From NCBI GenBank assembly GCA_021200475.1, contig JAJQGP010000087.1:24713-58819 (forward strand): DNA of 34,107 nucleotides, given 5' to 3'. Position 1 is the first letter of the stretch; each line of letters starts with the position of its first letter. Position numbers and translations under genes: made by a program. This DNA is from Lachnospiraceae bacterium. GTDB lineage: Bacteria > Bacillota > Clostridia > Lachnospirales > Lachnospiraceae. A model generated the notes under the pieces. That model was not told where the DNA came from. It searched no databases and worked only from the letters and a program-made list of their open reading frames with translations. Positions 1 to 13,910 of the stretch are shown here, piece after piece.

Positions 1-198
1 CTCGGCGGCAGGTCGCTTCGCCCATTCCAATGCGCTTCGCGCAGGGCTCCGCTCTGACAGGAAACGCCCCGCCAGCCATACTGTGACGGGGCCATCCTGC
101 GGAGTGTTCGCTCCGCGCAGCAGTCTGAAACGACAGATACGATTTCCTATGTACTTCACAACAAGTGTGAAGGACTGTTCCGAATCCTTTTCTCGCTC
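1..198. other. Noncoding edge region with short GC-rich palindromes
   Basis: I find no supportable gene here. The first ~120 bases hold several short hairpins with TTCG-like loops: GCGCTTCGCGC near 32-42, GGAGTGTTCGCTCC near 101-114, and GCCCCG (66-71) pairing with CGGGGC (87-92). CTTCACA and TGTGAAG (about 153-171) form a 7-bp hairpin downstream of the solute-binding protein stop, but it lacks a clear U-tract, so I do not call it a terminator. The region may be a decayed intergenic repeat cluster. Confidence 0.5.
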
Positions 199-1353
199 TT
201 ACTCGGCCGGCTCGATGGTCATCAGCCACTTAATCTGGCCATCTTCATAGGTATTTACAACCACCGGCTTAATTGCGTCGCCATTCTCATCAAGGTAAAT
301 ATCACCTGCGACACCGCTGAATTCCATCTCCGTCATGCCTGCCACAAGAGACGCCGTATCCGATCCGCCGCCGTCTTCCGCTGCCTGCAGAAGCATGTAC
401 ATCGCGTCATAATACAGAGCAGCGCAGGCATTCAGACTGTCTGTGCCATAAGCCTCGGTATACTTTGTAACAAAGTTCTGCACTGCCTCAGAGGTATCCT
501 CCGATGAATAGTGGTTTGTAAAATAGCAGTTATCAAAGTAATCCTCATAGCCAGTCGTGTCCGCGCCGTCCCAGCCGTCGCCGCCCATGATTGCGCCCTC
601 AAAGCCAGCATCTCTTACCTGCTGTACCAGAAGCGGAACTGTATCAAGGAAGCACGGATAGAATACAAAATCCGCACCGGACGCTACCGCGTTGGTCGCC
701 TGCGCGGTGAAATCGGTATCGGTCGTCGTGCACTCCGCAATGCCCGCGATCTCAATGCCAAGCGCCTCTGCGCTCTCCACAAACGCATCCTTCAGGCCGT
801 TGGAATAATCATCGTCCTTCGCGTAAATCACATATGCGGAAGTATACCCCTGCTCAGAGGCAAACTGCGCGGCCATCTCGCCCTGGAACGGATCAATAAA
901 GCAGTTGCGGAAAATGGTGTCGCCCGTCAGCGTGACATTTACATTGGTTGCGCCGGTTGCCAGAAGCAGCATGCCGTCGTCCGCCGCCAGCTCCGCCATC
1001 GCCAGGGTCGGCGTAGAAAAGAACGACCCAACGATTGCCTCCGGCGCCTCCGCCATCAGAGAATTGTAGGCATTGACCGCTTCCGTCGCATCCTTCGCGT
1101 CATCCGCCACATTTCCATTGTTCAGAATCTCGATCGTGTACTCGGAATCCGATGCGTTGATCTCCTCCACAGCCATGTTAATCGCGTTCTGCGCGCCCTC
1201 GCCGTACACAGCGGAACCGCCGGTCATCGCACAGATCACGCCAACTTTGATGACATAGTCCTCTTCTTCATCCGCCAATGCCGTCATCGGAGCGACCGTA
1301 GTCGCTGCCAGTGAAAGCGCAAGCGCCATACTGAACCATTTTTTCATTTTCAT
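199..1353 (-). CDS. Branched-chain amino acid-type ABC transporter substrate-binding protein
   Basis: This is an extracellular type I periplasmic-binding-fold protein (Peripla_BP_6, LivJ/LivK-like), which would capture an amino acid or related solute for an ABC importer. The start is the ATG at 1351-1353, nine bases after AGGAGG; an upstream in-frame ATG at 1416 lacks such a site. The 384-residue product has a Lys-rich N-terminus, a hydrophobic core and an ALA|DEEE signal-peptidase I-like site around residue 28. The mature part begins with the family-typical KVGVICAMTGGSAVYGEG and continues with AAQFASEQGYTSAYVIYAKD. No lipobox Cys is visible, which is unusual for a Gram-positive binding protein. 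No livHMGF genes are adjacent, so the permease must be elsewhere or left of the window. The gene is divergent from the D-amino acid/5-oxoproline operon, so a related ligand is possible but unproven. Confidence 0.9.
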   Translation of the reverse strand: MKMKKWFSMALALSLAATTVAPMTALADEEEDYVIKVGVICAMTGGSAVYGEGAQNAINMAVEEINASDSEYTIEILNNGNVADDAKDATEAVNAYNSLMAEAPEAIVGSFFSTPTLAMAELAADDGMLLLATGATNVNVTLTGDTIFRNCFIDPFQGEMAAQFASEQGYTSAYVIYAKDDDYSNGLKDAFVESAEALGIEIAGIAECTTTDTDFTAQATNAVASGADFVFYPCFLDTVPLLVQQVRDAGFEGAIMGGDGWDGADTTGYEDYFDNCYFTNHYSSEDTSEAVQNFVTKYTEAYGTDSLNACAALYYDAMYMLLQAAEDGGGSDTASLVAGMTEMEFSGVAGDIYLDENGDAIKPVVVNTYEDGQIKWLMTIEPAE

Positions 1354-1425
1354 AATAAAATTCCTCCTCTTCTGCTTTTTCTGCTCCCGCAGCAGCATAA
1401 AATTGTTCTGGCACATTCACAAAGA

Positions 1426-1463
1426 AAGGGCGTCTGATGACCTTCCCGTCACCAAACGCCCTT
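1426..1463 (-). promoter_or_regulatory. Leader hairpin upstream of the substrate-binding protein gene
   Basis: On the minus strand AAGGGCGT (1456-1463) pairs with ACGCCCTT (1426-1433). The stem extends inward through G-U wobbles to about 15 bp around an 8-base loop and is followed by UCUUUGU. It lies between the mapped promoter and the ribosome binding site, so it could act as an attenuator or an RNA-stability element. The U-tract is weak. No leader peptide rich in branched-chain codons is visible. Confidence 0.5.
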
Positions 1464-1483
1464 GTTCGTCTGACCATGCGCCG

Positions 1484-1512
1484 ACTATACTCCAATCTTT
1501 CTGATCTGTCAA
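1484..1512 (-). promoter_or_regulatory. SigA-type promoter of the substrate-binding protein gene
   Basis: On the minus strand TTGACA (1507-1512), a 17-base spacer and TATAGT (1484-1489) form a near-perfect vegetative promoter. Transcription would start near 1477 and give a 5' leader of about 125 bases that contains the hairpin at 1426-1463. Confidence 0.8.
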
Positions 1513-1655
1513 CTCCGGCTCCGGCCTGTTTTTCCGAAAGAAACTCCCCGGATTTGGAAACCGTCCGGATTTCTTTTGGTTCTTTTTGTTCTTTTTAAAA
1601 ATTATTTTTCCTGTTTTTTATTTTTACAAAATTATTTGTGAATTTTAAATGGTGG

Positions 1656-1684
1656 TTGACAATTCCCGCGAATCTTCCTAAAAT
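1656..1684 (+). promoter_or_regulatory. SigA-type promoter of the D-amino acid/5-oxoproline operon
   Basis: TTGACA (1656-1661), a 17-base spacer and TAAAAT (1679-1684) form a strong vegetative promoter. A very A/T-rich stretch (about 1575-1650) lies just upstream and could act as an UP element. The predicted start near 1691 leaves a leader of about 170 bases before the ATG at 1861. Confidence 0.8.
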
Positions 1685-1695
1685 CATGACAGATT

Positions 1696-1747
1696 GAGGC
1701 GACAGGGAAGTCACGGAAGAACCGGATTTCCCTGCGTCTCTTTTTTT
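1696..1747 (+). terminator. Intrinsic terminator in the operon leader (probable attenuator)
   Basis: GAGGCG-A-CAGGGAA (1696-1709) pairs with TTCCCTG-CGTCTC (1728-1740), giving a 13-bp stem with one bulged A and one G-U pair, followed directly by seven T (1741-1747). It begins only about five bases after the predicted transcription start, so it cannot terminate an upstream gene: the neighbour is divergent. It most likely stops nascent operon transcripts conditionally. The loop contains a small CGG/CCG mini-stem. Confidence 0.7.
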
Positions 1748-1826
1748 GTCCAATAGGATGGAAAGAATCCGAACTTCCCTATTGGACAAAAATGTATGCG
1801 CAGGGTATTTTATCATTTCGCATACG
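1743..1826 (+). promoter_or_regulatory. Further leader hairpins upstream of the transaminase gene
   Basis: TTTTTGTCCAATAGG (1743-1757) is a perfect 15-bp inverted repeat with CCTATTGGACAAAAA (1778-1792). Its 5' end uses the U-tract of the preceding terminator. A third stem, GTATGCG (1794-1800) with CGCATAC (1820-1826), follows. The loops of the first two hairpins share the pattern GGAA-GAA-CCG-A-TTCCCT, which suggests a tandem motif. It does not match a riboswitch class I recognise. Confidence 0.55.
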
Positions 1827-1860
1827 CATCGGATGCTGCAATAAAGGGAGGCGGATTTTT

Positions 1861-2715
1861 ATGAAAACACTCGGATACTATAATGGAACCTTTGGAGAAC
1901 TGGACGAGATGTCCATTCCGATGAATGACCGGGTCTGCTGGTTTGGAGACGGTGTGTACGATGCCGGTCCCTGCCGCAATTACCACATTTTCGCGCTCAA
2001 CGAGCACATTGACCGTTTTTTTAACAGTGCCGGCCTGCTGAAAATTCAGATGCCGGTCACAAAAACAGAGCTGAAAGACCTGCTGAACGAGCTTGTTCAG
2101 AAAATGGACAGCGGTGATCTCTTTGTCTATTATCAGGTGACACGCGGCACGGGCGCGCGCAATCATGTGTTTACGGAAGGCCCGGGAAATCTGTGGATTA
2201 CCCTGACCCATCAGGAGATTTCGGATGGAAAGACGCCGATCCGGCTCATCACAACGGAGGATACCCGTTTCTACCATTGCAACATTAAGACACTGAACCT
2301 GATCCCTTCCGTGATGGCGGCGCAGCGCGCAAAGGAAGCCGGATGCCAGGAAGCGGTCTTCTATCGTCCGGGCGGGCGCGTAACCGAATGCGCGCACAGC
2401 AATGTTCATATCATACAGGATGGCATGCTCCGCACCGCGCCGACAGACAATCTGATTCTGCCGGGCATTGCGCGCGCACATCTGATCCGCACATGCAAAA
2501 AGCTTTGTATTCCGGTAAACGAGACGGCCTTCACGCTGGATGAACTGTACGCGGCAGAAGAAGTCCTTGTCACCAGCTCCAGCAATCTCTGCCTCTGGGC
2601 AAATGAGATTGACGGAAAACCAGTCGGCGGGAAACAGCCGGAGCTGCTCGAAAAAATCCGCGGGGCCCTGATCACCGAATTCCATGAAGCGACAAATGGC
2701 TGCGCACCTGTTTGA
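1861..2715 (+). CDS. dat: D-amino acid aminotransferase (PLP class IV)
   Basis: This enzyme would exchange amino groups between D-amino acids and 2-oxo acids, typically D-Ala + 2-oxoglutarate to pyruvate + D-Glu. The 284-residue length is normal for fold-type IV transaminases. Lys143 in NIKTLNL corresponds to the PLP Schiff-base lysine of the DIKSLNL motif in D-alanine transaminase. The carboxylate-binding motif R100-N-H102 in TRGTGARNH and Glu176 in RVTECAHSN also fit the D-specific group better than branched-chain transaminases. The ATG at 1861 is preceded by AGGGAGG; an in-frame ATG at 1792 would add residues encoded by the leader hairpins and is unlikely. It is the first gene of an operon with 5-oxoprolinase and D-glutamate cyclase-like genes, so D-Glu is the expected product or substrate. 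A D-specific reaction is well supported by motifs; the exact substrate is inference. Confidence 0.88.
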   Translation: MKTLGYYNGTFGELDEMSIPMNDRVCWFGDGVYDAGPCRNYHIFALNEHIDRFFNSAGLLKIQMPVTKTELKDLLNELVQKMDSGDLFVYYQVTRGTGARNHVFTEGPGNLWITLTHQEISDGKTPIRLITTEDTRFYHCNIKTLNLIPSVMAAQRAKEAGCQEAVFYRPGGRVTECAHSNVHIIQDGMLRTAPTDNLILPGIARAHLIRTCKKLCIPVNETAFTLDELYAAEEVLVTSSSNLCLWANEIDGKPVGGKQPELLEKIRGALITEFHEATNGCAPV

Positions 2716-2767
2716 TACAGCTCTGTAATCACCGGCCTGCGATCCTGCATAGAAAGTGTTTGAGATC

Positions 2768-3502
2768 ATGAATTCTACGACAGAAACTGTACGAATACTG
2801 CCTGCCGGAGACCACGCGCTGGCAGTGGAATTTGGAGACAAAATTGATCCGGCGGTAAATGACCGGGTGCACGCGCTGGCTGCACGGATTCGGGAAGCAT
2901 CCATCATCGGTGTTACAGAGCTGGTACCGACGTTCCGTTCTCTGCTCGTTGTTTACGAGCCGTCCATCCTGAAGTACGGGGAATTAAAATCCACAGTCGA
3001 ACGGCTGGCATGCCTTCCGGAGACTTCGGCATCTGACACAGGCCGGGTGCTGCACATTCCCTGCTGCTACGGCTCCCACTTCGGACCAGACCTGCCTGAT
3101 CTGGAGCGATATACCGGTATTGACCGGGATGCGATCATCGCCATACACAGCGGCACCGAATACCGCGTCTATATGCTCGGTTTTTTGCCCGGCTTTGTTT
3201 ACCTGGGGGGACTCGATGAGCGGATTGCCATGCCCAGACTCTCTACGCCGCGCGTCAGAATACCAAAAGGCTCCGTCGGCATCGGCGGAAATCAGACCGG
3301 GGTCTATCCGCTCGAATCGCCGGGCGGCTGGCGGCTGATCGGAAGCACGCCGCTGGATTTTTATAATCCGGAGCGGGAAGCGCCTGTACTCTGCCGCGCA
3401 GGGGACAGAATCCGCTTTTACCCGATCAATTCCAGCGATTATTATGACATCCGCCGGATGCAGGCACACGGAGGAGGCGATGCAGTATGGCAATTCGCGT
3501 GA
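2768..3502 (+). CDS. pxpB: 5-oxoprolinase subunit PxpB (KipI family)
   Basis: PxpB, with PxpA and PxpC, forms the bacterial ATP-dependent 5-oxoprolinase that opens 5-oxoproline (pyroglutamate) to glutamate in the cytoplasm. The 244-residue chain has the family C-terminal signature, from about residue 139: GFLPGFVYLGGL, then PRVRIPKGSVGIGGNQTG, then SPGGWRLIGSTP. The start is uncertain. ATG at 2768 gives the family length, but an in-frame GTG at 2756 is possible and neither has a convincing Shine-Dalgarno sequence. The gene follows the transaminase by about 50 bases and overlaps pxpC by 16 bases, so the two subunits are probably translationally coupled. The B. subtilis homologue KipI also inhibits the sporulation kinase KinA; whether this one does so cannot be read from sequence. 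Confidence 0.93.
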   Translation: MNSTTETVRILPAGDHALAVEFGDKIDPAVNDRVHALAARIREASIIGVTELVPTFRSLLVVYEPSILKYGELKSTVERLACLPETSASDTGRVLHIPCCYGSHFGPDLPDLERYTGIDRDAIIAIHSGTEYRVYMLGFLPGFVYLGGLDERIAMPRLSTPRVRIPKGSVGIGGNQTGVYPLESPGGWRLIGSTPLDFYNPEREAPVLCRAGDRIRFYPINSSDYYDIRRMQAHGGGDAVWQFA

Positions 3503-4383
3503 TCAATCCCGGTGCGCTGACGACCGTACAGGACATCGGACGTACCGGTTATCAGGAACTGGGAATGCCCTGCTCCGGCGTAATGGATACGTGCGCGTAC
3601 CAGGCAGCCAATACACTGGTTGGAAACGAACACGGCGAGGCTGTCCTTGAATTTACCCTTTTCGGCGGCATTTATCAGATCGAAGAGGATGCCATTCTGG
3701 CGCTCACCGGTGCGGATATGGCTCCGCTGCTGGATGGGGCGGCCTGTCCGATGAACCGTCCGTTTCCGGTCAGAAGAGGTCAGATTCTGATGGTTGGAAC
3801 CGCTCTTTCCGGCTGTCGAAGCTACCTCGCCGTCAGCGGCGGCATCGATGTCCCCACCGTACTCGGCAGCCGCTCTACAAACCTGAAATGCGCGATCGGC
3901 GGATTCGAAGGGCGCGCGCTGAAAGCCGGTGACCTGCTTCCCGTCGGAGTTTCTTCTATTATATATAGGGAGGTCGCTGACCGTTTTGCTCCAGAGCGCA
4001 TCTTTCCGGAAATGCTTACCGTTCGCGCGATCGGCGGGCCACAGGAAGACCTGTTTACGGAGCAGGGACGAAAGACCTTTTACACAGGCACCTACACGGT
4101 TTCACAGGAGAGCGACCGCATGGGCTGTCGGCTGAGGGGAGCCGCCATCGAGAGCAGACATGGAACGGATATTGTCTCCGACGCCATCGTTTTCGGCTCC
4201 ATCCAGGTCACACCCGCGGGGCAGCCCATCATTCTGCTCGCCGACCGCCAGACAACCGGCGGATATGCGAAAATTGCCACAGTCTGTACGGCGGATTTAC
4301 CGGCACTCGCTCAGGCGCGGCCAGGGTACACTATTCACTTTCAGAAAATCACCGTCGAAGAGGCACAGAAGCTGCTGCAATAA
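3487..4383 (+). CDS. pxpC: 5-oxoprolinase subunit PxpC (KipA family)
   Basis: PxpC is the biotin-carboxylase-C-like subunit of the 5-oxoprolinase complex and pairs with PxpB, to which it is fused in some bacteria. The 298-residue chain opens with the family motif GALTTVQDIGRTGYQELG (residues 8-25), followed by PCSGVMD. Later conserved pieces are AVSGGIDVPTVLGSRSTN and ILLADRQTTGGY near the C-terminus. The length is slightly below the 310-335 residues usual for the family but no conserved block is missing. The ATG at 3487 overlaps the 3' end of pxpB and has a GGAGGCG site upstream. Biotin-dependent carboxylase was an old annotation for this family; with pxpA and pxpB present, 5-oxoprolinase is the better call. 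Confidence 0.93.
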   Translation: MAIRVINPGALTTVQDIGRTGYQELGMPCSGVMDTCAYQAANTLVGNEHGEAVLEFTLFGGIYQIEEDAILALTGADMAPLLDGAACPMNRPFPVRRGQILMVGTALSGCRSYLAVSGGIDVPTVLGSRSTNLKCAIGGFEGRALKAGDLLPVGVSSIIYREVADRFAPERIFPEMLTVRAIGGPQEDLFTEQGRKTFYTGTYTVSQESDRMGCRLRGAAIESRHGTDIVSDAIVFGSIQVTPAGQPIILLADRQTTGGYAKIATVCTADLPALAQARPGYTIHFQKITVEEAQKLLQ

Positions 4384-4467
4384 AAAACAGGCAAATATTT
4401 CGCCGGTATTCAGCATCCCTGCTCTCCATAATCGTATGGCACATTACACTACAGGAGGAAAAACCTC

Positions 4468-5262
4468 ATGAAACAAGAAGACGATACCACCATGTCCCCA
4501 CGTGAGGTGCGCGCACGCATCCGCGACGGACGGATCACCGGACAGACCTCCGGCATGTGTGCCGGATACGCGCAGGCGAACCTGGTCGTGCTTCCGGCGG
4601 CCTACGCCTATGATTTTCTGCTGTTTTCACAGCGCAACCCACGTGCCTGCCCCCTTCTGGAGGTCAGTGACACCGGCAGCCGCTTTCTGAAAGAAATCGC
4701 CAAAGGCGCAGACATCGCGCGCGAAATCCCGCGCTATCGGATTTTCCGAAACGGCATTCTCGCCGGGGAATACACCGACGTGTCTGATTTCTGGCAGGAG
4801 GATTTTGTCAGTTTTCTGATCGGCTGCAGTTTTTCCTTTGAAGCGGAGCTGCTCGATGCAAGGGTTCCCGTCCGCCATATCGAAGAAGGACGCAACGTTC
4901 CCATGTACCGCACCAGTATCAGCTGCGCCCCGGCCGGTATTTTTCACGGAAACATGGTCGTCAGCATGCGGCCCATCCCCTTTGAACTGGTGCCGCGGGC
5001 CGTCCAGGTGACCGGCGCCATGCCCCGTGTTCACGGTGCTCCGATCCACATCGGATGTCCGGAGGTCATCGGTATTACCGATCTCCATCATCCGGATTTT
5101 GGCGATATGGTTACGATCCGTGAGGGAGAAGTACCCGTTTTCTGGCCCTGCGGCGTCACCCCGCAGAATGTAGTGATGGAGTCGAAACCAACGCTCGCGA
5201 TCACACATGCGCCGGGACATATGCTGATCACGGACATTCGGAATACGGAATTAAAGTTCTGA
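4468..5262 (+). CDS. DUF1445/YcsI (UPF0317) family putative hydro-lyase, D-glutamate cyclase-associated
   Basis: This 264-residue protein belongs to the DUF1445 (YcsI, UPF0317) family, often annotated as putative hydro-lyase. Family-like segments are TSGMCAGYAQANLVVLP near the N-terminus, DFVSFLIGCSFSFEAELL in the middle, and VFWPCGVTPQNV with APGHMLITD at the C-terminus. The ATG at 4468 follows AGGAGGA. In B. subtilis ycsI sits in the same cluster as the pxpA, pxpB and pxpC homologues, which supports a role in 5-oxoproline metabolism. In the animal enzyme DGLUCY a DUF1445-like N-terminal part is fused to DUF4392; here the DUF4392 gene lies two genes downstream. The reaction of this half alone is unknown. 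It could assist cyclisation, interconvert stereoisomers, or dehydrate a related acid. Family assignment is firm; function is inference. Confidence 0.85.
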   Translation: MKQEDDTTMSPREVRARIRDGRITGQTSGMCAGYAQANLVVLPAAYAYDFLLFSQRNPRACPLLEVSDTGSRFLKEIAKGADIAREIPRYRIFRNGILAGEYTDVSDFWQEDFVSFLIGCSFSFEAELLDARVPVRHIEEGRNVPMYRTSISCAPAGIFHGNMVVSMRPIPFELVPRAVQVTGAMPRVHGAPIHIGCPEVIGITDLHHPDFGDMVTIREGEVPVFWPCGVTPQNVVMESKPTLAITHAPGHMLITDIRNTELKF

Positions 5263-5268
5263 ATAAAT

Positions 5269-5330
5269 GTTACAGGTCACACGATAGCCATATTTACCTT
5301 ATTTCAACCACTACAGGTGTGACCTGTAAC
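5269..5330. repeat. Palindromic intergenic repeat, copy A
   Basis: GTTACAGGTCACAC (5269-5282) is a perfect 14-bp inverted repeat with GTGTGACCTGTAAC (5317-5330) around a 34-base loop containing ATTTACCTTA. It lies inside the operon between the DUF1445 gene and pxpA. A second copy at 21810-21865 shares both arms and the central ATTTACCTTA, and a decayed third copy is near 33197. No U-tract follows, so it is a repeat or RNA-structure element rather than a classic terminator. Confidence 0.8.
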
Positions 5331-5380
5331 GGCATCCGGCCAATGAAATATTTATCATCACCTTTCCGGGAGGAACTGTT

Positions 5381-6157
5381 ATGCAAACTATTGATCTGAA
5401 CTGTGATCTGGGAGAAAGCTTTGGAAACTACAAATGTGGGATGGACGAGGAAATCCTTCCCTGTATCACCTCCGCAAATATCGCCTGCGGCTTCCATGCC
5501 TCGGATCCGCTTGTCATGCAGAAAACCGTACGCCTCGCAAAAGAAAATCAGGTGCACATCGGCGCGCATCCCGGATTTCAGGATCTGGTCGGCTTCGGCC
5601 GCCGCAATATGAGCCTGCCGCCGTCTGAAATCACCGCCATCGTAGAGTATCAGATTGGAGCACTGCAGGCTTTTTGCACGGCGAACGATGTCACATTACA
5701 GCACGTAAAGCCCCACGGTGCCCTTTACAATATGGCAGTAAAAGACGCTTCCATCGCCGATGCGATCTGTGAGGGCATCGCGGCGGTCGACCCAGACCTG
5801 ATTCTGCTCGGTCCCGCCAAAAGCCAGCTGATCCTCGCCGCTAAAAAATACGGTCTGCACGCCGCACGGGAGATTTTCGCCGACCGCGCATACGAAGAGG
5901 ATGGTTCTCTGGTCGCCCGCAGCAAGCCTGGTGCCATTATTTCCAACCAGGAAGAAGCGCTCACCCGCGTCATCGGGATGATAAAATACGGCACGGTAAC
6001 CGCCATCACCGGCCGGAAAATCGAAGTGGAAGCAGATTCCGTCTGCATCCATGGCGACAATCCGGCAGCGCTCGCCTTTGCAAAAAGCATTCGCGAAGCA
6101 CTCCAGGCGGAGGGCATTACACCCATGCCGATGGACGAGGTGATCTCCTGCGTATAA
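5381..6157 (+). CDS. pxpA: 5-oxoprolinase subunit PxpA (LamB/YcsF family)
   Basis: PxpA is the third subunit of the PxpABC 5-oxoprolinase, which hydrolyses 5-oxoproline to glutamate using ATP. The 258-residue length matches the LamB/YcsF family. It opens with IDLNCDLGESFG (residues 3-14), then ITSANIACGFHASDP and GAHPGFQDLVGFGRR. HVKPHGALYN at residues 108-117 carries conserved His and Lys residues, and EIFADRAYEEDGSLVARS follows. The ATG at 5381 has a GGGAGGA site. It is separated from pxpBC by the DUF1445 gene and from that gene by palindromic repeat copy A, so its expression may be tuned separately by that hairpin. Confidence 0.95.
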   Translation: MQTIDLNCDLGESFGNYKCGMDEEILPCITSANIACGFHASDPLVMQKTVRLAKENQVHIGAHPGFQDLVGFGRRNMSLPPSEITAIVEYQIGALQAFCTANDVTLQHVKPHGALYNMAVKDASIADAICEGIAAVDPDLILLGPAKSQLILAAKKYGLHAAREIFADRAYEEDGSLVARSKPGAIISNQEEALTRVIGMIKYGTVTAITGRKIEVEADSVCIHGDNPAALAFAKSIREALQAEGITPMPMDEVISCV

Positions 6158-6217
6158 GGGCATTCCGACTGTATTTCCTGCCAGCAATTTGTAAAAGAAT
6201 ACAAGGGAGAAACAGGC

Positions 6218-7072
6218 ATGAGCACAAACCAACCGTCAGACACCATCGAAGATATTGTCCTGCGCTACTCGGAACGCGGGATGTCACAGCTGAAGGAATA
6301 CCTGGAAGCGGCCTACTGCAAAAAAGCTGCCGAGCGTCTGCTCGCACTGGAGCGCGGGATCGTTTTCCTTACCACCGGGTTTTATGTGGCCGGGCATGCG
6401 GAAACGGATGGCCCGCCCGGTACCTTAAGCATCGCGCTGGCCCTCAAAAAGCTCGGATTTACCCCCATCATCATAACCGACCGTATCTGCGATGGCCTCT
6501 TTGAGCCGGAGGGTCTTTTCGTCCTCTATGTCGGAATCCAGGCAGACACGGCCTGGTATGAGAGTATTCTCGATCATTTTCACCCGGTATGCCTGATTTC
6601 CGTCGAGCGCTGCGGCAGAAACCAGAATCAGGAATACGCGAACATGAGGGGTGTCAGTATTTCCGAACAAACTGCTCACATTGACACCATGTTTGAGCTT
6701 GCGTCCGATGCCCACATCCTCACAATCGGGATCGGAGATGGCGGCAACGAAATCGGCATGGGAAACCTGAAAGGCGTGATTTCTGAAAAGCTTTCTCTCA
6801 CGCCCTGCGAGATCAGAGTGGATGAACTGATCATTGCTACCACTTCAAACTGGGGAGCCTATGCGCTGGTCGCCTATCTGGATCTTCTGCAGGAGCAGCC
6901 ACTCTTTCCTTCCTATGAAGCCTTATCTGGCTACCTCTGCCGGATCGTCGCGCTCGGCTGTGTGGACGGTGTCACAAAGCAACCCATCCCCAGCGTGGAC
7001 GGTTTTTCGCCTGAAATTGAACGGGAAATCGTTGATTTGCTCTGGCAAATCACAAACCATACTTACCGTTAA
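6218..7072 (+). CDS. DUF4392 family protein, putative D-glutamate cyclase
   Basis: The DUF4392 domain is the C-terminal catalytic part of the animal mitochondrial D-glutamate cyclase DGLUCY, which converts D-glutamate to 5-oxo-D-proline. This 284-residue bacterial form covers the domain alone. The hallmark GDGGNEIGMG lies at residues 173-182, preceded by an N-terminal segment with FLTTGFYVAGHAETDGPPGT and a helix GTLSIALALKKLG. The C-terminal part includes TTSNWGAYALVAYL. The ATG at 6218 follows AAGGGAGA. It closes the operon dat-pxpB-pxpC-DUF1445-pxpA-DUF4392 and converges with a minus-strand gene 17 bases away. Joint occurrence of a D-amino acid transaminase, a D-Glu cyclase domain and 5-oxoprolinase strongly suggests D-glutamate turnover. 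The activity itself is inferred from family and context. Confidence 0.87.
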   Translation: MSTNQPSDTIEDIVLRYSERGMSQLKEYLEAAYCKKAAERLLALERGIVFLTTGFYVAGHAETDGPPGTLSIALALKKLGFTPIIITDRICDGLFEPEGLFVLYVGIQADTAWYESILDHFHPVCLISVERCGRNQNQEYANMRGVSISEQTAHIDTMFELASDAHILTIGIGDGGNEIGMGNLKGVISEKLSLTPCEIRVDELIIATTSNWGAYALVAYLDLLQEQPLFPSYEALSGYLCRIVALGCVDGVTKQPIPSVDGFSPEIEREIVDLLWQITNHTYR

Positions 7073-7088
7073 GGCTGCCGCAGCAGGA

Positions 7089-7475
7089 TTATTTCCCTGC
7101 TTTTCCCGCCTTCTCAAAAAACAGTCCGGTCAAAAACCAGATCGGTGCGTAGTCAAGACGGATGACTCCGTTTACCTGATAAGGGGAGCCGCTATAGTCC
7201 CAGGGACACCGGTCTCTCTTTTTCAGCCACATTCCGGAGGAATATTCAACAGCAAAAATGCCGACCATGTAAATCAGGCCTCTCGTAAATGTATTGAACC
7301 GCTTCAGGGCACCCGAGAGCGGTGCGATCAGAGAGGCCAGGCCATAAATGGGAAACATATGCAGGGAAGAAAACCCCAGCAGCTTTGGGTCGTGGTGCGC
7401 GAGGGAGTGCAGGCCGGTCCAGAGAACCTCCAGACACCATCCATACATCCCACAGCGGATAAATCGATTCTTCAT
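7089..7475 (-). CDS. Small membrane protein of the putative ABC-transporter type IV family (PF06541)
   Basis: A 128-residue integral membrane protein with about four hydrophobic segments. The C-terminal family signature is clear: an EY-S pair after a membrane helix, then W-DYSGSPYQVNGVIRLDY and a final helix ending FLTGLFFEKA. The family resembles WDYS--P-N-NG-I-L, which is named after ABC-type permeases although no transport function is established. I chose the ATG at 7475, which has AAAGGCGG ten bases upstream. An in-frame ATG at 7526 would add 17 polar residues without a better site. It stands between the cyclase gene (convergent) and the ThrE-like gene (same strand, about 145 bases upstream). 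Confidence 0.7.
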   Translation of the reverse strand: MKNRFIRCGMYGWCLEVLWTGLHSLAHHDPKLLGFSSLHMFPIYGLASLIAPLSGALKRFNTFTRGLIYMVGIFAVEYSSGMWLKKRDRCPWDYSGSPYQVNGVIRLDYAPIWFLTGLFFEKAGKAGK

Positions 7476-7620
7476 TGGCAGAAAACCGCCTTTCTGACAG
7501 GTTTCATCCGTCCTGTCTTCCGTCATTTTCTTTCTGCCTTAGTCTGTACCGGCTTCCCATAAATTATGTTTCCATTTTGTAACAGTTCAGAACCGCATCA
7601 AAATGAAAAGACAGACTGCC

Positions 7621-8835
7621 TCACTTTTTTAAACTCCCCCACCGCGCCATTGTCGATACCATCAGGATGGCAACTGCAATGATTCCGGCGACCGCAACGG
7701 TATACAGTCCCTGTCCATACACGCGCTCCGTCTCCTGCCGCACGATATAATTCATCGTATAATATACGCTCGCTCCGGGGATGAGCGGAAAGATCGATAC
7801 AACCAGGTACGAAATCGCCGGGAATTTGCGAATGCGCGCCATAATTTCCGAATAGGCCGCTGCAAACACGGATGCCATAAAATAAGCCATCAGATCGGTG
7901 CTGCCAGAACGCAGGGCAAAAAAATAAATAGACCAGGAGAGCATCCCGCCCAGACAGCAGAGCAATGCGCCAATCCCGTGGATATTAAACAGCATCGAAA
8001 AGCCTGCACACGCAATGAAACAGGCAATCGCCTGAAGAGCATAGGGATAGCCCGCATCGGATGCGGCAAGAGGAATCCCCCACAGCTGTTCCGCCAGGTT
8101 CCAGGCGGCGCCCGTACCCAATGCGATTGCAGCAGCAATCAGAAAGACCTGCACAATCCGATTGGTGCCGGAATTGGTATCGCCAAAAATAATATCCCGC
8201 ATCGCGTTTGTAAAAAGCAGTCCCGGAACCAGAAGCATCAATGCGCCGATGACAACCGCATCCGCATTGTCTGCAAGGCCGTACGCCCCCATGGCATAAG
8301 CGGGAACGGCCATCAGAAAAGCCGCAAGGATCGTACGGAAAAAGGGATTTGCGCGAAAGCGGTCCAGAATCGCATCAATCGCTCCAATGAACAGACCGCA
8401 GATGCCTGCGCACAGGGCGTCCCTCCATGTCCCTCCAAAAAGGATGGAAAATCCGCCCGCTCCCAGGAAGCTGCCAAGCAGCCGTATGAGCCAGGGAAAT
8501 TCCAGACGCTGCTTCTTTGTATCCTCCAGCCAGCGCTCTATGAGCGCCGGTTCCGGCTTTTCCAGGCAGATCCGGCGGCTGAGATTGCTCAGCTTCTCCA
8601 CCTCATCCAGATTGTTCCCATGATAACCAATGCGGCGCATCCGGGTCAGGGCATTTCCATCCGGCGTGCGGATGCTGACCGTCAGGCAGTTGGGGATAGC
8701 AAACGCCTCTGCCCTGGCACCATAGGATTTTAGAATCCGGACAATGCTCTCCTCAATTCGAAATGTTTCCGCCCCGTTCATCGCCAGCTGGTAGCCCAGC
8801 TCGGTCGCCAGATCCAGCAAAGCTTCGTAATCCAT
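7621..8835 (-). CDS. ThrE-type threonine/serine exporter, both domains fused
   Basis: This 404-residue membrane protein joins the cytosolic/N-terminal ThrE domain (PF06738) and the C-terminal ThrE_2 membrane domain (PF12821). The N-terminal motif NGAETFRIEESI (about residues 19-30) is typical, followed by polar sequence to residue ~130 and then about ten hydrophobic segments. FSILFGGTWRDALCAGICG and VSIFPLIPGASVYYT match the two membrane halves. Firmicutes often split the protein in two genes; here it is one chain as in Corynebacterium ThrE. The ATG at 8835 is chosen because upstream in-frame sequence to 8955 overlaps nudC and lacks homology; its ribosome site (GAAGAG) is modest. It is probably co-transcribed with nudC. 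Substrates are inferred; this family has also been linked to small peptides or other amino acids. Confidence 0.88.
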   Translation of the reverse strand: MDYEALLDLATELGYQLAMNGAETFRIEESIVRILKSYGARAEAFAIPNCLTVSIRTPDGNALTRMRRIGYHGNNLDEVEKLSNLSRRICLEKPEPALIERWLEDTKKQRLEFPWLIRLLGSFLGAGGFSILFGGTWRDALCAGICGLFIGAIDAILDRFRANPFFRTILAAFLMAVPAYAMGAYGLADNADAVVIGALMLLVPGLLFTNAMRDIIFGDTNSGTNRIVQVFLIAAAIALGTGAAWNLAEQLWGIPLAASDAGYPYALQAIACFIACAGFSMLFNIHGIGALLCCLGGMLSWSIYFFALRSGSTDLMAYFMASVFAAAYSEIMARIRKFPAISYLVVSIFPLIPGASVYYTMNYIVRQETERVYGQGLYTVAVAGIIAVAILMVSTMARWGSLKK

Positions 8836-8923
8836 AATTGTTCTCTTCGTTTCCTTTCCAGTGTTGCCTGCGCAGCCTGTCTGCGAATGTCTCTTAACAT
8901 TCTCACAGCTTCTCTTTTCACGC

Positions 8924-9892
8924 TTAAAGCGGAATCTGATTGTACTTAAACACACTCATCATTTCCCGTGTCAGGCTCACCCCGTCGTTCTCCGGCACCT
9001 CACTGCGCGTACACCATTTGCCCTCTGAGAGTTCTCTCTCATCCAAAAGAATGTCACTGTCCCCGTCTACCTCCGCGAAGAACCCCATCAGAAGCGTATC
9101 GGTGAAGGACCATGGCTGACTTTTGTAATAGCGAATGTTTTTGACCTTCAGCCCGACTTCTTCCATCACTTCCCGCTCTACGGTCTCCTCAATTGTCTCC
9201 CCGATTTCCGCAAATCCGGCAATCAGCGCATAATTTCTGAGCGAACGCCCGGCATACTTCGTGAGAAGGATTTTATCCTTACAGGTCACGCCGACAATTA
9301 CCGCCGGACAGATTTTCGGGTATTCCATCTGTCCGCAGGCTTCGCAGTGCATCATGCGCTCCTTTTCCGAGTGAACCATACGTCTGCCGCAGGCCGGGCA
9401 GAAACGGCGGCTTTTGTACCAGCCATAAAGCTGCATCCCCGTAACGCCCGCAAAGGCCGCCTCTTTCGGCCCGGCAGTGCGCATAAGTTCAATTTTTTCC
9501 CAGGTATAACCCGGAAACAATTCCGGCAGACCATTCGCATTCCACAAAGCTTCCCCATAGCTGCCCCGGCTGTCTTTCCCTTTGGGGCTGTCATGTCCCT
9601 GATGCTCATCCGGTTCCGTTCGTTCCAGGCGGGAAATGTCAATCTTCTCTTCTCCAAACATCCGGAACAGAAAATAATCCGTCCCATCCATCGAAAACAA
9701 AAAGGTCGCTTCCTCATCCGGATCAGGACAGACCCGCATGACTTCCTCATAGCGCAGAAAGGAAACCGAATCTTCCCTGCGTTTTACCAAAATCTCTCTG
9801 CCCCGATAAAACAAAACCCTGCTGTCCGCCTTCGGCTGCGCGCATGGCTGGTACTCATTATGAAATCTGTGTTTTCCGATCTCCTGAATCAT
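8924..9892 (-). CDS. nudC: NAD+ diphosphatase (NudC-type Nudix hydrolase)
   Basis: NudC cleaves NAD(H) to NMN(H) and AMP and can remove NAD caps from RNA 5' ends. The 322-residue chain has the full NudC layout: a variable N-terminal domain, a zinc ribbon with CPAC and CEAC pairs (about residues 164-187), and a Nudix domain. The Nudix box GX5EX7REUXEEXGU is visible as GFAEIGETIEETV followed by EREVMEEVGL. The NudC-specific motif SQPWSFTDTLLMGF follows, close to the canonical SQPWPFP. The ATG at 9892 has AAGGGG upstream; the longer reading from 9964 begins at the promoter. It is followed by the ThrE-like gene after about 90 bases. Confidence 0.92.
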   Translation of the reverse strand: MIQEIGKHRFHNEYQPCAQPKADSRVLFYRGREILVKRREDSVSFLRYEEVMRVCPDPDEEATFLFSMDGTDYFLFRMFGEEKIDISRLERTEPDEHQGHDSPKGKDSRGSYGEALWNANGLPELFPGYTWEKIELMRTAGPKEAAFAGVTGMQLYGWYKSRRFCPACGRRMVHSEKERMMHCEACGQMEYPKICPAVIVGVTCKDKILLTKYAGRSLRNYALIAGFAEIGETIEETVEREVMEEVGLKVKNIRYYKSQPWSFTDTLLMGFFAEVDGDSDILLDERELSEGKWCTRSEVPENDGVSLTREMMSVFKYNQIPL

Positions 9893-9954
9893 AAGTTTCC
9901 CCTTTCTTTCTGTCACCATCCAGCTTTTCCATTTGTTTTGGATTCTTCTCAGGA

Positions 9955-9983
9955 ATTGTACCATACGAATCAGATAAAGTCTA
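9955..9983 (-). promoter_or_regulatory. Probable promoter of nudC and the ThrE-like gene
   Basis: On the minus strand TAGACT (9978-9983), a 17-base spacer and TACAAT (9955-9960) match the vegetative consensus at 4/6 and 5/6 positions. The start would fall near 9948, leaving a leader of about 55 bases before the nudC ATG. Confidence 0.55.
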
Positions 9984-10198
9984 TTCTGTTTTCTGCCTGT
10001 CTATTTTTCTATATGGTCTCCGGTTCCGGATTATAACCGCACCCGGCACTCTTAAATCTACATTTGTGTCTGAGAAAAACTTACTAATTTTTTCCCTCTT
10101 AAAAGAAAAACTACATGTTTTTTTGCCAGACCTCGTGTATCAGCCACAGGATTTCCCCCAACAACACTGCCAAATCGCAATTTTTGCTTCTTAAATAC
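9984..10198. other. Intergenic stretch between divergent nudC and megaenzyme promoters
   Basis: This A/T-rich stretch separates two divergent promoters. I see no gene with a ribosome site, and the short open frame from 10115 runs through the downstream promoter and leader, so it is not credible. There is no strong inverted repeat. Any operator for the megaenzyme gene would be expected here. Confidence 0.5.
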
Positions 10199-10304: not shown

Positions 10305-13300
10305 ATGATTACAAAAAATCAGACAAAAACGATCTATGATCTGTTACATAACGCGGGCCGGGAATACGACAGCCGGATTTTTCTGCGCTACGAAACGCAG
10401 GATGTCCTGCGCGAAGTCTCTTACCGGACCTTCATGGAGGAATGCGACGCGTTTTCCGCATGGCTGGAGGCACAGGATCAGACGGTTGGCCGCAAAATGC
10501 GCGTCGCCATCTTAGGCGGCAGCAGCCACGCCTATCTCACCATACTTCTTGGTGTTATGAGCCACGGGAACGTCGTGATCCCGCTGGATGTCCAGCTGGA
10601 CTATCAGGGACTGGTGGATTGCCTGAACCGCTCCGACGTCGATATCCTGTTTTATGACTGGGAACATCACTCCGTCGTGGAAGGCGCCCGGCCGCTCTGT
10701 CCGACGGTCACCTCGTATATTTCTCTGCAGCACGGCAAGCACGTCCCCTGTCTGGACGGCATTCTGACCGCGTTTAAAGGACAGGCTGTCCCGGCAGATG
10801 TGCGGGAAAAGGACTGCGCGATGGTACTTTTTACCTCCGGAACCACCGGCAAAAGCAAGGGTGTCATGCTCTCCAACGCGAACCTGATTGACAATGTTTT
10901 CAACGCGGACGCGGATGACAATGCCCAGAACCGGGTTCTGCTCAATGTTCTTCCGATTCACCATGTCTTCTGTATCAACTGCGATGTTCTTTCCACGCTT
11001 CGCTATGGCAGCGTGCTGGCGTTAAATCAGGATATGACACGTCTCTCCGAGCACCTGAAGCTGTTCGCACCCACCGAGATGCGCGTCGTCCCGATGATCG
11101 CGAAGGCGCTCTACAACCGCATCGCCCTGCTCGCAAGACAGGAGCCAAATCGTTCTATTTTTGAGATCCGCTCTGAGGTTCTCGGAAAAAATATGCGGCA
11201 GATCACCACCGGCGGCGGTTATCTCGCACCGGAGCTCGCAGCAAACTTCTGGCGGATCGGCGTACCGATCGCGCAAGGCTACGGCATGTCTGAATGTGCG
11301 CCGAAAATCGCCTCCGCGGACTGGAACCGCCCTGACAAGGTTTCTTCCGTCGGACGAATCGTGAAGGGCTGCCAGGTACGTATTGTCGAAGGAGAGATTC
11401 AGGTCAAAAGTCCATCTGTCATGATGGGATACTACAAGGAGCCGGAACGCACCGCTGAAGTAATGACCGAAGACGGCTGGCTCTGCACCGGAGACCTCGG
11501 TTATGTCGATGAGGACGGTTTTCTCTGGCTCACCGGCCGCAAGAAAAACCTGATCGTCCTCAGTAACGGAGAAAATGTCGCACCGGAGCAGCTGGAAAAT
11601 CTCTTTGAGGGCGAACAGCTGATCGAAGAAATACTCGTGTACGGCGAGGACGACGCAATTGTAGCTGAGGTATTCCCGAATTTCAAATACGCAGACGCAG
11701 CCAGCGTTCAGGATATCCACTCTGCCATATCCGAAATCATCAACCGGCGCAACCAGGATCTTCCTTCCTATAAGAAAATCGTGCGCTTTACTCTGCGGGA
11801 TACGCCTTTCCCGAAGACCTCTTCAAAGAAAATTCTGCGCAGCCATTATTTTGAGCAGAAAAAGAACCATCTGGAGACAGAGACAAGCGCCCTCAGGCCG
11901 GAGAATGAGCTTCAGCAGCAGATTTATGATATGATTGCCGCGCAGCTCGGCCACAGCCGCTTCGGCATTGACACCGACATTTATGAAGCCGGTCTGGATT
12001 CCATGGGCAGCGTCATGTTGCTGGCAGACCTGTACGAAAAGCTGCAGTTTTCCATCACCTTAAACGAGCTGATGAACAATACCACGGTAGAAAAGCTGGA
12101 AGCACTCTGCCTGCAGTCCCGGGAACGCGAGTCGATCGACTACTCGCCGCGTGAGATTTACCCGCTCACGAATCTTCAGCTTTACTTCGCATACGTCGTG
12201 CGCGGAAACACCACCGCGAATCTTCCTTACTTCTTCCGGCTCGGGAGCAAAATTGATCTGCCCCGGCTGAAAAAAGCGATCGAGGATTTGTTTGACATAC
12301 ACCCGGCCATGAAAAATATTGTCCAGTTCCACGAGGGGGCTTTCAAAAACTTCCGCGATGACAGCCGCAAGATTGACATACCCATCGTGAAGCTCAGTGA
12401 CGACGAATGGTCGAAAGCAAGGGAGACCCTGCTTGTTCCCTATATGTACACGCCGAATGAGCCGCTGTACCACATTGCGATTTACGAGACGGATTCCGCG
12501 AATTATCTGTTTTTCGACCTCGCACACATTGTCGGCGACGGAACGACGATGCACGTTCTCTTTGAAGATCTCGACGCCCTGTATCAGGGGAAACCGGTGG
12601 AAAAAGAGACTTACTCTTTCTATGAATACATTCTGGATGAGAAAAAACGTGACGCCGACGGTCTGCGAACGGAAAATGAGAAGTACTTCCAGACTCTGAT
12701 GAAAGACTTCCGCATCCGTAAAAGCATCCTCACCAGAAAGGACTGTCACGACCTCGAAACCGGCCAGAATGCCTCTCTGAAAGGCCGCTTTTCCAGTCTG
12801 ACAAAAAAGAAGCTGCTCGCTTTCTGCCGGGAAAATGCGGTATCCGAAAACGTGCTCTTCCTGACCGCGTTCAACTACACGGTCGGTATTTTCAGCAATG
12901 AGAAGGATGTGGTCAGCAGCAGTATTCACAGCGGGCGGACGGACAGCCGCTGGGCGAGGATCGCCGGTCCCCTGTTCCTGACCTACTTCTTCCGCTATAC
13001 CAATGTCCCACACGAGACGGTGCCGGAGCTGCTGAAGAAATCGGCACACCAGATCATGGATACCATGAACTGCTACATCTCCACCCTGCACGCGGATGAA
13101 ATGTTCTTCCAGTACCAGGGCGACCTGCTGCACGTGGAAGAGATCGGCGGTGAGCCTCTGACGCGCGAATCGGTACAGCTGGATTCCCTGCCCTTCCACC
13201 TTCAGGTCATGGCGGACGAGCGAGGCTATTTCTACGAGCTGCGCTACTGGGAAAACCGCTTTGACGGCAGCCAGCTGGAGCTTTTCCTTGTCGCCATGGA

Positions 13301-13910
13301 AGCCGTCACCCGGGCCATGCTGGACGAGTCCTCCGTGCGCCGGCTGAAGGGCTACCTGCCACAGTCACTCTTCCCAAAGCATTATTTCACTACCGTCGGG
13401 GAGGTCAATCAAGCCGCCGGATACCCCCTGATCCCAACCGTTGCTGCGGATACCAGAGTAAAGGCCTACGTCTTTGATGAAACCTGCCGCAAGCAGCCGC
13501 TGGGCGCCTGGGGATCGCTTTACATCATGGACTATCCGACCGAAGGCTATCTGGATCAGATCACGAACCCTTACGGCCCCGGTATCCTCTACCAGACCGG
13601 AAAGACCGCCCGCATCCTGCCGGACGGCTCCATCGATCTGCTGGAACAGGGCGGAAGAACCGTCATCCACGAGGGCATCAAAGGCCGGCACTTCCTCGAT
13701 CTGTACCGTCTGGAGACCGTCCTTACCGCCTATGAGGGAATTCACCATGCCGAAGCCTATGTTCGCTACGCCGAGAAAAACCAATTGGTACTCACCGCGG
13801 ACGTCTACGGCACCGAAGAGCCCGACCAGGAGAAGCTGCGCGCATATCTTGCAGAACACTGTGAAGAAGCGCTGATACCAGGAGAGATACGGTTTATCGC
13901 TGAACCGTAA
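10305..13910 (+). CDS. NRPS-like megaenzyme: acyl/aminoacyl-AMP ligase, carrier, condensation domain and adenylation-domain stump
   Basis: A 1201-residue protein with domains ligase-carrier-condensation-partial adenylation. The ligase (residues ~1-515) has FTSGTTGKSKG (~175-185), GYGMSE (~325), TGDLGY, GRKKNLIVLSNGENV and FPKTSSKKILR; it resembles acyl-CoA/fatty-acyl-AMP ligases more than classical amino-acid adenylation domains. The carrier (~530-605) has Ser566 in GLDSMG, the 4'-phosphopantetheine site. The condensation domain (~615-1040) has AH-IVG-DG at 740-746, so the first His of HHxxxDG is Ala while the second His, Asp and Gly remain. Residues ~1054-1201 resemble only the C-terminal A7-A10 part of an adenylation domain, with YQTGKTARILPDGSIDLL where TGD is expected; the ATP-binding core is absent. 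The ATG at 10305 follows GTGAGGA. No thioesterase, phosphopantetheinyl transferase or tailoring gene adjoins. Product unknown; an N-acyl or amide lipid is a guess. Confidence 0.85.
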   Translation: MITKNQTKTIYDLLHNAGREYDSRIFLRYETQDVLREVSYRTFMEECDAFSAWLEAQDQTVGRKMRVAILGGSSHAYLTILLGVMSHGNVVIPLDVQLDYQGLVDCLNRSDVDILFYDWEHHSVVEGARPLCPTVTSYISLQHGKHVPCLDGILTAFKGQAVPADVREKDCAMVLFTSGTTGKSKGVMLSNANLIDNVFNADADDNAQNRVLLNVLPIHHVFCINCDVLSTLRYGSVLALNQDMTRLSEHLKLFAPTEMRVVPMIAKALYNRIALLARQEPNRSIFEIRSEVLGKNMRQITTGGGYLAPELAANFWRIGVPIAQGYGMSECAPKIASADWNRPDKVSSVGRIVKGCQVRIVEGEIQVKSPSVMMGYYKEPERTAEVMTEDGWLCTGDLGYVDEDGFLWLTGRKKNLIVLSNGENVAPEQLENLFEGEQLIEEILVYGEDDAIVAEVFPNFKYADAASVQDIHSAISEIINRRNQDLPSYKKIVRFTLRDTPFPKTSSKKILRSHYFEQKKNHLETETSALRPENELQQQIYDMIAAQLGHSRFGIDTDIYEAGLDSMGSVMLLADLYEKLQFSITLNELMNNTTVEKLEALCLQSRERESIDYSPREIYPLTNLQLYFAYVVRGNTTANLPYFFRLGSKIDLPRLKKAIEDLFDIHPAMKNIVQFHEGAFKNFRDDSRKIDIPIVKLSDDEWSKARETLLVPYMYTPNEPLYHIAIYETDSANYLFFDLAHIVGDGTTMHVLFEDLDALYQGKPVEKETYSFYEYILDEKKRDADGLRTENEKYFQTLMKDFRIRKSILTRKDCHDLETGQNASLKGRFSSLTKKKLLAFCRENAVSENVLFLTAFNYTVGIFSNEKDVVSSSIHSGRTDSRWARIAGPLFLTYFFRYTNVPHETVPELLKKSAHQIMDTMNCYISTLHADEMFFQYQGDLLHVEEIGGEPLTRESVQLDSLPFHLQVMADERGYFYELRYWENRFDGSQLELFLVAMEAVTRAMLDESSVRRLKGYLPQSLFPKHYFTTVGEVNQAAGYPLIPTVAADTRVKAYVFDETCRKQPLGAWGSLYIMDYPTEGYLDQITNPYGPGILYQTGKTARILPDGSIDLLEQGGRTVIHEGIKGRHFLDLYRLETVLTAYEGIHHAEAYVRYAEKNQLVLTADVYGTEEPDQEKLRAYLAEHCEEALIPGEIRFIAEP

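Follow-up and report, generated by a model that had tools for sequence, protein, structure and literature searches.

The window analysed here is a stretch of 34,107 nucleotides from a Lachnospiraceae bacterium (contig JAJQGP010000087.1, assembly GCA_021200475.1). Between positions 1656 and 7072 it carries six open reading frames (ORFs) on the forward strand, in the order dat, pxpB, pxpC, DUF1445, pxpA and DUF4392, and we consider it likely that this operon is a salvage module that moves D-amino acids to L-glutamate. According to two published accounts, animal DGLUCY has DUF1445 as its N-terminal and DUF4392 as its C-terminal domain (PMC5132392, PMC5339696). Since these are the two domains of that protein (mouse 9030617O03Rik, human C14orf159), the operon would, by its domain content, encode a split DGLUCY, with both halves and not DUF4392 alone.

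In the route that we propose, an ATP-binding cassette (ABC) transporter of the Liv type, or in some relatives an AGCS symporter, would import the amino acid, and Dat would convert D-alanine or another D-amino acid, together with 2-oxoglutarate, to D-glutamate (and pyruvate, if from D-alanine). DUF4392, as a metal-dependent cyclase, would then close D-glutamate to 5-oxo-D-proline at a di-metal site, DUF1445 would invert the alpha carbon of this lactam to give 5-oxo-L-proline, most likely with cysteines as acid and base, and PxpABC would use ATP to open the L-lactam to L-glutamate, from which glutamate dehydrogenase would regenerate 2-oxoglutarate and close the cycle. Because ATP is consumed, D-to-L conversion by this route would run in one direction only, something beyond the reach of a glutamate racemase, whose reaction is freely reversible. 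PxpABC opens 5-oxoproline and is known for the L-lactam, and DUF4392 should give the D-lactam, so that the link between them should invert the alpha carbon; this stereochemical gap, already pointed out in an earlier sequence-only reading, is real as far as can be seen. In the lactam the alpha hydrogen is more acidic than in free glutamate, which makes the ring form a sensible place for the inversion. The analysis shows directly which genes are present, that their order and key residues are conserved and that they co-occur; we infer in what order the steps run, what each half does, what the transporter carries, and that DUF1445 acts as an epimerase and a glutamate dehydrogenase closes the cycle. 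The full chain, with inversion by DUF1445, is a serious but not a probable proposition, and placing the D-to-L step on 5-oxoproline in DUF1445 is tentative.

Gene assignments and conserved residues

All six ORFs gave Pfam matches well above the cut-offs (PF01063, PF02682, PF02626, PF07286 or D-Glu_cyclase, PF03746 and PF14336 or GLUCM-like_C). The genes are separated by 40 nt (dat-pxpB), 84 nt (pxpC-DUF1445), 118 nt (DUF1445-pxpA) and 60 nt (pxpA-DUF4392), pxpB and pxpC overlap by 16 nt, and the next ORFs on the 3' side, from 7089, lie on the opposite strand. The sequence-only reading had described these six genes as one operon behind one promoter, and the genes, their common strand and the short gaps were all confirmed; the promoter at 1656 is a consensus match only, and positions 1-10000 contain 18 such promoter-like sites, where shuffled sequence has 7.2 on average. 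The three 5-oxoprolinase subunits are encoded together and match curated models (PxpA NF003814, PxpB TIGR00370, PxpC TIGR00724), with PxpC under the equivalog NF045499 (270 of 500 bits) and PxpA under the equivalog NF003813 (346 of 392 bits). The aminotransferase is below the TIGR01121 equivalog cut-off (217 of 277 bits) and we therefore call it dat-like. It most likely starts at the ATG at 1861, behind GGGAGG, rather than at the first in-frame ATG at 1792, because relatives also open with MKTLGYYNG there.

Residues were counted without loci L001, L002, L027 and L042, which hold the same gene or a near copy. In the dat alignment, Tyr33, Arg100, His102, Lys143 and Glu176 are invariant in 23 of 23 rows (one gene is present twice). 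DUF1445, which has solved relatives in 2pif and 3db9, keeps Cys61, Cys120, Cys228, His189 and His247 in 53 of 53 sequences. DUF4392 is a relative of TON_0340 (4dwz, 5gl2, 5gl3, 5gl4), an archaeal protein for which the available text describes a metal site of six acidic residues (PMC5132392). Equivalents of all six ligands are found in the window (Glu62, Asp64, Glu130, Asp174, Glu178 and Asp261); the first five are invariant in 53 of 53 rows, in which a few genes appear twice, and Asp261 is present in 51, the exceptions being L004 (Asn) and L040, where the locus is cut.

The sequence-only reading had named DUF4392 as the catalytic part of DGLUCY, a description that is not supported: DUF1445 is the other domain of the same protein, and the D-glutamate cyclase activity was assayed, in the sections seen, with the whole two-domain mouse protein (PMC5339696), so that ring closure by DUF4392 is a proposal.

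Company of the genes across loci and genomes

The nearest named relatives of the window are metagenome-assembled genomes of Lachnospiraceae. Among 25 related loci, 12 hold all six genes, ten of them in the order of the window; in one locus (L010) an alanine racemase gene is inserted within the operon. pxpA is absent from two loci (L006, L012), whose genomes both encode it elsewhere, and dat from one (L024), while five loci hold only DUF1445 and DUF4392, four only DUF4392 (L014 on a 4.8-kb contig), and one (L004) is a deletion remnant. The loci are not independent, several being near kin of the window (L002 is 99% identical); the gene set that they share is more than chance. In L004, with flanks 82-92% identical, most of the block from the Liv genes to pxpA is gone and DUF4392 is kept with Asp261 changed to Asn; comparison of L004 9406-11060 with L027 7342-19281 places a loss of ~8.7 kb between positions 9273 and 18018 of L027. 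This DUF4392 seems to have lost its use along with its partners, misassembly being the alternative. In a PxpA tree of 59 rows, which include two pairs of identical rows and from which L004, L029 and L048 were also left out, 15 of the 25 operon rows fall in one clade (99/99) and the others are scattered, with 7 changes, at least 2 of them forced. dat also adjoins DUF4392, in a different gene order, in genomes G082, G121 and G148.

We surveyed 150 genomes of the family and 249 of the phylum, the phylum set including the window genome. The Fisher tests ignore kinship except in their genus- and family-collapsed versions, DUF4392 matches under the cut-off were excluded from the counts (G108 in the family; G388 in the phylum, which has DUF1445 and PxpA), and partial or split copies were counted (three of 44 DUF1445 genomes, G201, G214 and G327; four of 76 PxpA genomes, G294, G318, G320 and G366). 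In the family, DUF4392 is rare (9/150), and DUF1445, PxpA and a dat homologue are present in every one of the nine genomes that have it (p = 9e-12, 6e-8 and 6e-11, respectively). In seven of the nine, DUF1445 and PxpA lie within 4 kb of DUF4392, in six of these with dat within 5 kb; the other two (G014, G038) have divergent DUF4392 genes, 30-32% identical, on other contigs. The claim that these genes belong together, for which a genome survey had been named as the refuting test, was thus upheld within the family. The association holds in the phylum, where DUF1445 is found in 20 and PxpA in 22 of the 28 DUF4392 genomes, and six of the 28 have neither.

DUF1445 was never found without PxpA (44/44 genomes in the phylum, 13/13 in the family). 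Among PxpA genomes of the phylum, it is present in 20 of 22 with DUF4392 versus 24 of 54 without (p = 1.3e-4), a difference that persists after collapsing by family (11/12 versus 12/25, p = 0.011) and that is also seen in the family sample (9/9 versus 4/18, p = 1.5e-4). In a separate set, in which the PxpA search did not cover L014, three of three genomes whose locus has DUF4392 but lacks DUF1445 (L018, L022, L023) have no PxpA, and all five with the DUF1445-DUF4392 pair alone have PxpA elsewhere in the genome. Because DUF1445 is nearly always present where DUF4392 and PxpA co-occur, these results suggest that it links the DUF4392 product to PxpABC.

A competing explanation is that DUF1445 and DUF4392 form a single D-glutamate cyclase with no inversion, and that the D-to-L change falls to MurI acting on D-glutamate or to a loosely specific PxpABC, or that 5-oxo-D-proline is excreted. 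In vertebrates the two halves form one polypeptide, 5-oxo-D-proline is the reported product of this fused protein (PMC5339696), the Pfam name of PF07286 is itself D-Glu_cyclase, and MurI is over its cut-off in all nine DUF4392 genomes of the family, as in the window genome (130 of 150 overall). However, many DUF1445 genomes lack DUF4392 (24/44 across the phylum, 4/13 within the family) and some DUF4392 genomes lack DUF1445 (8/28 across the phylum), so that neither half strictly depends on the other; and the route would still come to a dead end if such a cyclase supplied an L-specific PxpABC. We regard this explanation as doubtful.

The sequence-only reading had put dat in one chain with the other genes. 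dat does accompany them in the family, and a more distant form of it does so in Pseudoalteromonas. In each of the three regions examined there, out of five such records listed, a glycoside hydrolase family 3 (GH3) enzyme is followed by a row of DUF1445, PxpA, DUF4392 and an aminotransferase of class IV with 27-29% identity to dat; in one of them, L048, PxpA is only partly open. The other four of the seven plasmid DUF4392 regions examined lack this set, and in one of these four, from S. fredii, DUF1445 is 2 kb away. Phylum-wide, dat is not enriched with DUF4392 (6/28 versus 35/221, p = 0.30), and it therefore seems to have joined in particular lineages.

The missing enrichment of dat is one of several observations that weigh against the route with DUF1445 as its inverting step. 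Two PxpA genomes have DUF4392 without DUF1445 (G365, and G318, whose DUF4392 is split between two frames), a single genus accounts for four of the six genomes that have DUF4392 but no PxpA, some divergent DUF4392 genes lie in unrelated contexts, and in Pseudoalteromonas neither pxpB nor pxpC was found within 8 kb. With MurI, the window genome already has a D/L-glutamate racemase. No racemase is among the 50 Foldseek matches listed for DUF1445, which comprise its own family, NrpR and weak matches, although absence from this list does not exclude a racemase fold. Cofactor-independent racemases and epimerases set two cysteines opposite each other across the substrate, in pseudo-symmetric halves; DUF1445 has three invariant cysteines, and an internal duplication equating Cys120 with Cys228 was not supported (hhalign p 0.46). 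For mouse DGLUCY, which has both domains, 5-oxo-D-proline is the reported product, from an analysis that included standards of the D and of the L form (PMC5339696). If both halves kept their bacterial roles, the epimerase would be expected to leave the two forms mixed. The vertebrate N-terminal half may have lost epimerase activity. Finally, TON_0340, a DUF4392 protein, is reported as a phosphatase in the available text (PMC5132392). DUF4392 might accordingly be a Mn-dependent small-molecule phosphatase, as proposed for TON_0340, in an ordinary 5-oxo-L-proline operon with passengers, and the conserved metal ligands would suit this; but the gene is found again and again with dat and DUF1445, and in two loci with alanine racemase, and mice without the DUF4392-containing protein are reported to accumulate D-glutamate (PMC5339696), which makes a phosphatase highly improbable.

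Substrate, transport and direction of the route

The salvage reading takes PxpABC to act on the L-lactam. Were it D-specific, the module could run in reverse, with imported 5-oxo-D-proline opened to D-glutamate, from which Dat and pyruvate would give 2-oxoglutarate and D-alanine. Dat is reversible, and some relatives have a second pxpA apart from the operon, as if for a different substrate: G070 and G124 have a second pxpB-pxpC-pxpA locus without DUF1445 or DUF4392, and G152 and G153 a second pxpA by PxpA count. At position 209, the operon PxpC has Ser where canonical PxpC has mostly Phe. Nevertheless, with the thresholds used, only 3 positions separate PxpA, PxpB and PxpC of the main operon clade from the canonical proteins; signature residues thus show almost no differences, and a D-specific enzyme is not indicated by the sequences. 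Moreover, a D-glutamate cyclase encoded alongside would close the opened ring again, with ATP spent in the process. We consider the reversed direction improbable.

A salvage module would need import of its substrate, and complete livKHMGF genes lie divergent from the operon in the window's own contig (L027) and in L003, L005, L007, L008 and L009; in L089 and L090 they share the strand of dat and stop ~0.7 kb before it. Elsewhere, Liv-type genes stand directly before pxpA-DUF1445 in a distant genome (L104, G341) and 1.6 kb beyond DUF1445 in Methylobacterium (L064), which suggests that Liv transporters accompany the pathway more widely. An alanine racemase gene is found within (L010) or beside (L025) the operon, and AGCS symporters in five of the 25 loci. 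The GH3 enzyme of L048 is nearest to a beta-N-acetylhexosaminidase model, below its cut-off (189 bits versus 207), and L054 has an M20 dipeptidase another 2.3 kb along. Alanine racemase, AGCS symporters and the Pseudoalteromonas GH3 enzyme point to alanine and cell-wall fragments as the substrate. The peptidoglycan origin of the D-amino acids, as proposed in the sequence-only reading, finds its best hint in this GH3 enzyme and is otherwise inference.

We rejected the operon as a source of cell-wall D-glutamate, since the window genome has MurI and its cell-wall D-glutamate need not depend on dat. MurL, the UDP-MurNAc-L-Ala-L-Glu epimerase, is encoded with MurD2 beside the operon in L010, L012 and L013 (profile-checked in L010), a lead that was dropped because none of the nine DUF4392 genomes of the family has MurL. 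Homologues of MurL (below the cut-off, E<=1e-60) occur in 10 of the 150 genomes, all among the 20 without a MurI match, and MurL is a predicted alternative route to cell-wall D-glutamate in the family.

Leader, neighbouring features and known systems

The features at the start of the window are collected below.

Features of the operon and its surroundings in the window
Feature	Positions	Strand	Basis
livK, LivK-type substrate-binding protein	199..1416	-	PF13458 E 1.4e-50; divergent from operon
Promoter-like site, TTGACA-17-TAAAAT	1656..1684	+	11/12 consensus positions (sigma-70)
Putative leader, G(A/G)C-ANNGNN-GTC motif in terminator-like hairpin, then T run	1695..1747	+	motif pattern
dat, D-amino-acid aminotransferase-like, class IV	1861..2715	+	PF01063; best solved match 1daa E 1.5e-47
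pxpB, 5-oxoprolinase subunit	2756..3502	+	TIGR00370 203 bits, cut-off 146
pxpC, 5-oxoprolinase subunit	3487..4383	+	TIGR00724 325 bits, cut-off 230
DUF1445 (YcsI family), DGLUCY N-terminal-half homologue	4468..5262	+	PF07286 E 9.8e-70
pxpA, 5-oxoprolinase subunit	5381..6157	+	NF003814 379 bits, cut-off 226
DUF4392, DGLUCY C-terminal-half homologue	6218..7072	+	PF14336 E 1.7e-74

The livK gene is the first of livKHMGF, and the remaining liv genes lie beyond the window start. The leader motif was found in 12 of the 17 dat-led operon rows examined (the window, L003, L005, L006, L007, L008, L009, L010, L012, L013, L093 and L099) and its pattern was absent in L011/L094, L017, L089 and L090; 10 of the 11 listed leaders have a promoter-like site in front of them. 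Against Rfam, nothing reached the gathering score and only sub-threshold matches appeared at E<=10, and alignment A3, whose rows were picked by the motif so that its invariant positions arise by construction, showed no covariation. The leader may be a regulated attenuator of unclassified type. An ANTAR target and a PyrR site were considered and set aside, the resemblance being by eye only and Rfam giving nothing over threshold. The same motif with a T run precedes ORFs that by eye resemble carA (L083, ~9664) and an iron-type alcohol dehydrogenase (L092, ~4287), and the leader may therefore control other genes too. Between the leader terminator and dat there is a 28-nt inverted repeat (1730-1757 and 1778-1805, 82% complementary, 20 nt apart), the core of which, with up to 2 mismatches allowed, did not turn up in front of dat in L003. 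Further along the window, a 1201-aa ORF (10305-13910) has by eye the look of a multidomain enzyme with AMP-binding, carrier and condensation-like parts.

Peptidoglycan is a large source of D-glutamate and D-alanine in the gut. A route that dispenses with a flavin D-amino-acid dehydrogenase would be of advantage to strict anaerobes; this dehydrogenase is the enzyme favoured in a study of Raoultella and Pseudomonas growing on D-glutamate (PMC6131576). The operon would also give a substrate context to DUF1445 and DUF4392, families known mostly by number, and it raises the testable question of which half of DGLUCY closes D-glutamate and what the other half does. In its furthest form, which we rate as rather unlikely, the proposal is that DUF1445 is a cofactor-independent 5-oxoproline epimerase of a new racemase family and fold, that with DUF4392 and PxpABC it makes an ATP-driven, one-way D-to-L glutamate inverter requiring neither oxygen nor flavin, and that it is the ancestor of the N-terminal half of vertebrate DGLUCY. 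No paper on a 5-oxoproline or pyroglutamate racemase or epimerase was found in the literature searched, and none of the titles and abstract openings listed describes the operon. In Agrobacterium, a distant DUF1445 gene (L061 4968-5747, 39% identical) stands beside dihydropyrimidinase, SDR and ABC transporter genes; it possibly acts on another cyclic amide.

Compared with DGLUCY, the operon has both domains, and the six TON_0340 metal ligands are conserved in its DUF4392; the domains are fused in vertebrates, whereas here they are two genes with pxpA between them, accompanied by the rest of PxpABC and by dat. Split homologues from the gut microbiome are not new as such, being covered by a table on full-length and split homologues in PMC11580864, which gives 0 and 6 for GLUCM_HUMAN, and the passage on them in that source, as far as available, does not describe the operon. 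The aminotransferase resembles the Bacillus D-amino-acid aminotransferase (1daa) in its class IV fold family and in having the catalytic Lys and the residues of the Tyr and Arg-x-His trap; it differs in falling under the equivalog cut-off and in being part of a PxpABC operon. Seven of the family's pxp loci that were fetched (L065, L067, L068, L075, L079, L080, L081) carry NRAMP and AccB/AccC genes and none of DUF1445, DUF4392 or dat, and their order, NRAMP-pxpB-pxpC-AccB-AccC-pxpA, sets a biotin carboxylase and its carrier with the 5-oxoprolinase. The ycsI gene of B. subtilis we take to be DUF1445. The pxp operon of that species (ycsG, ycsI), in the part of its description seen (PMC10448178), and pxpTABC of C. 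glutamicum share pxpA, pxpB and pxpC with the window operon but, unlike it, no DUF4392 was found in either control genome. DUF1445 as a 5-oxoproline epimerase is the bold and testable claim; the rest is a variant of known systems.

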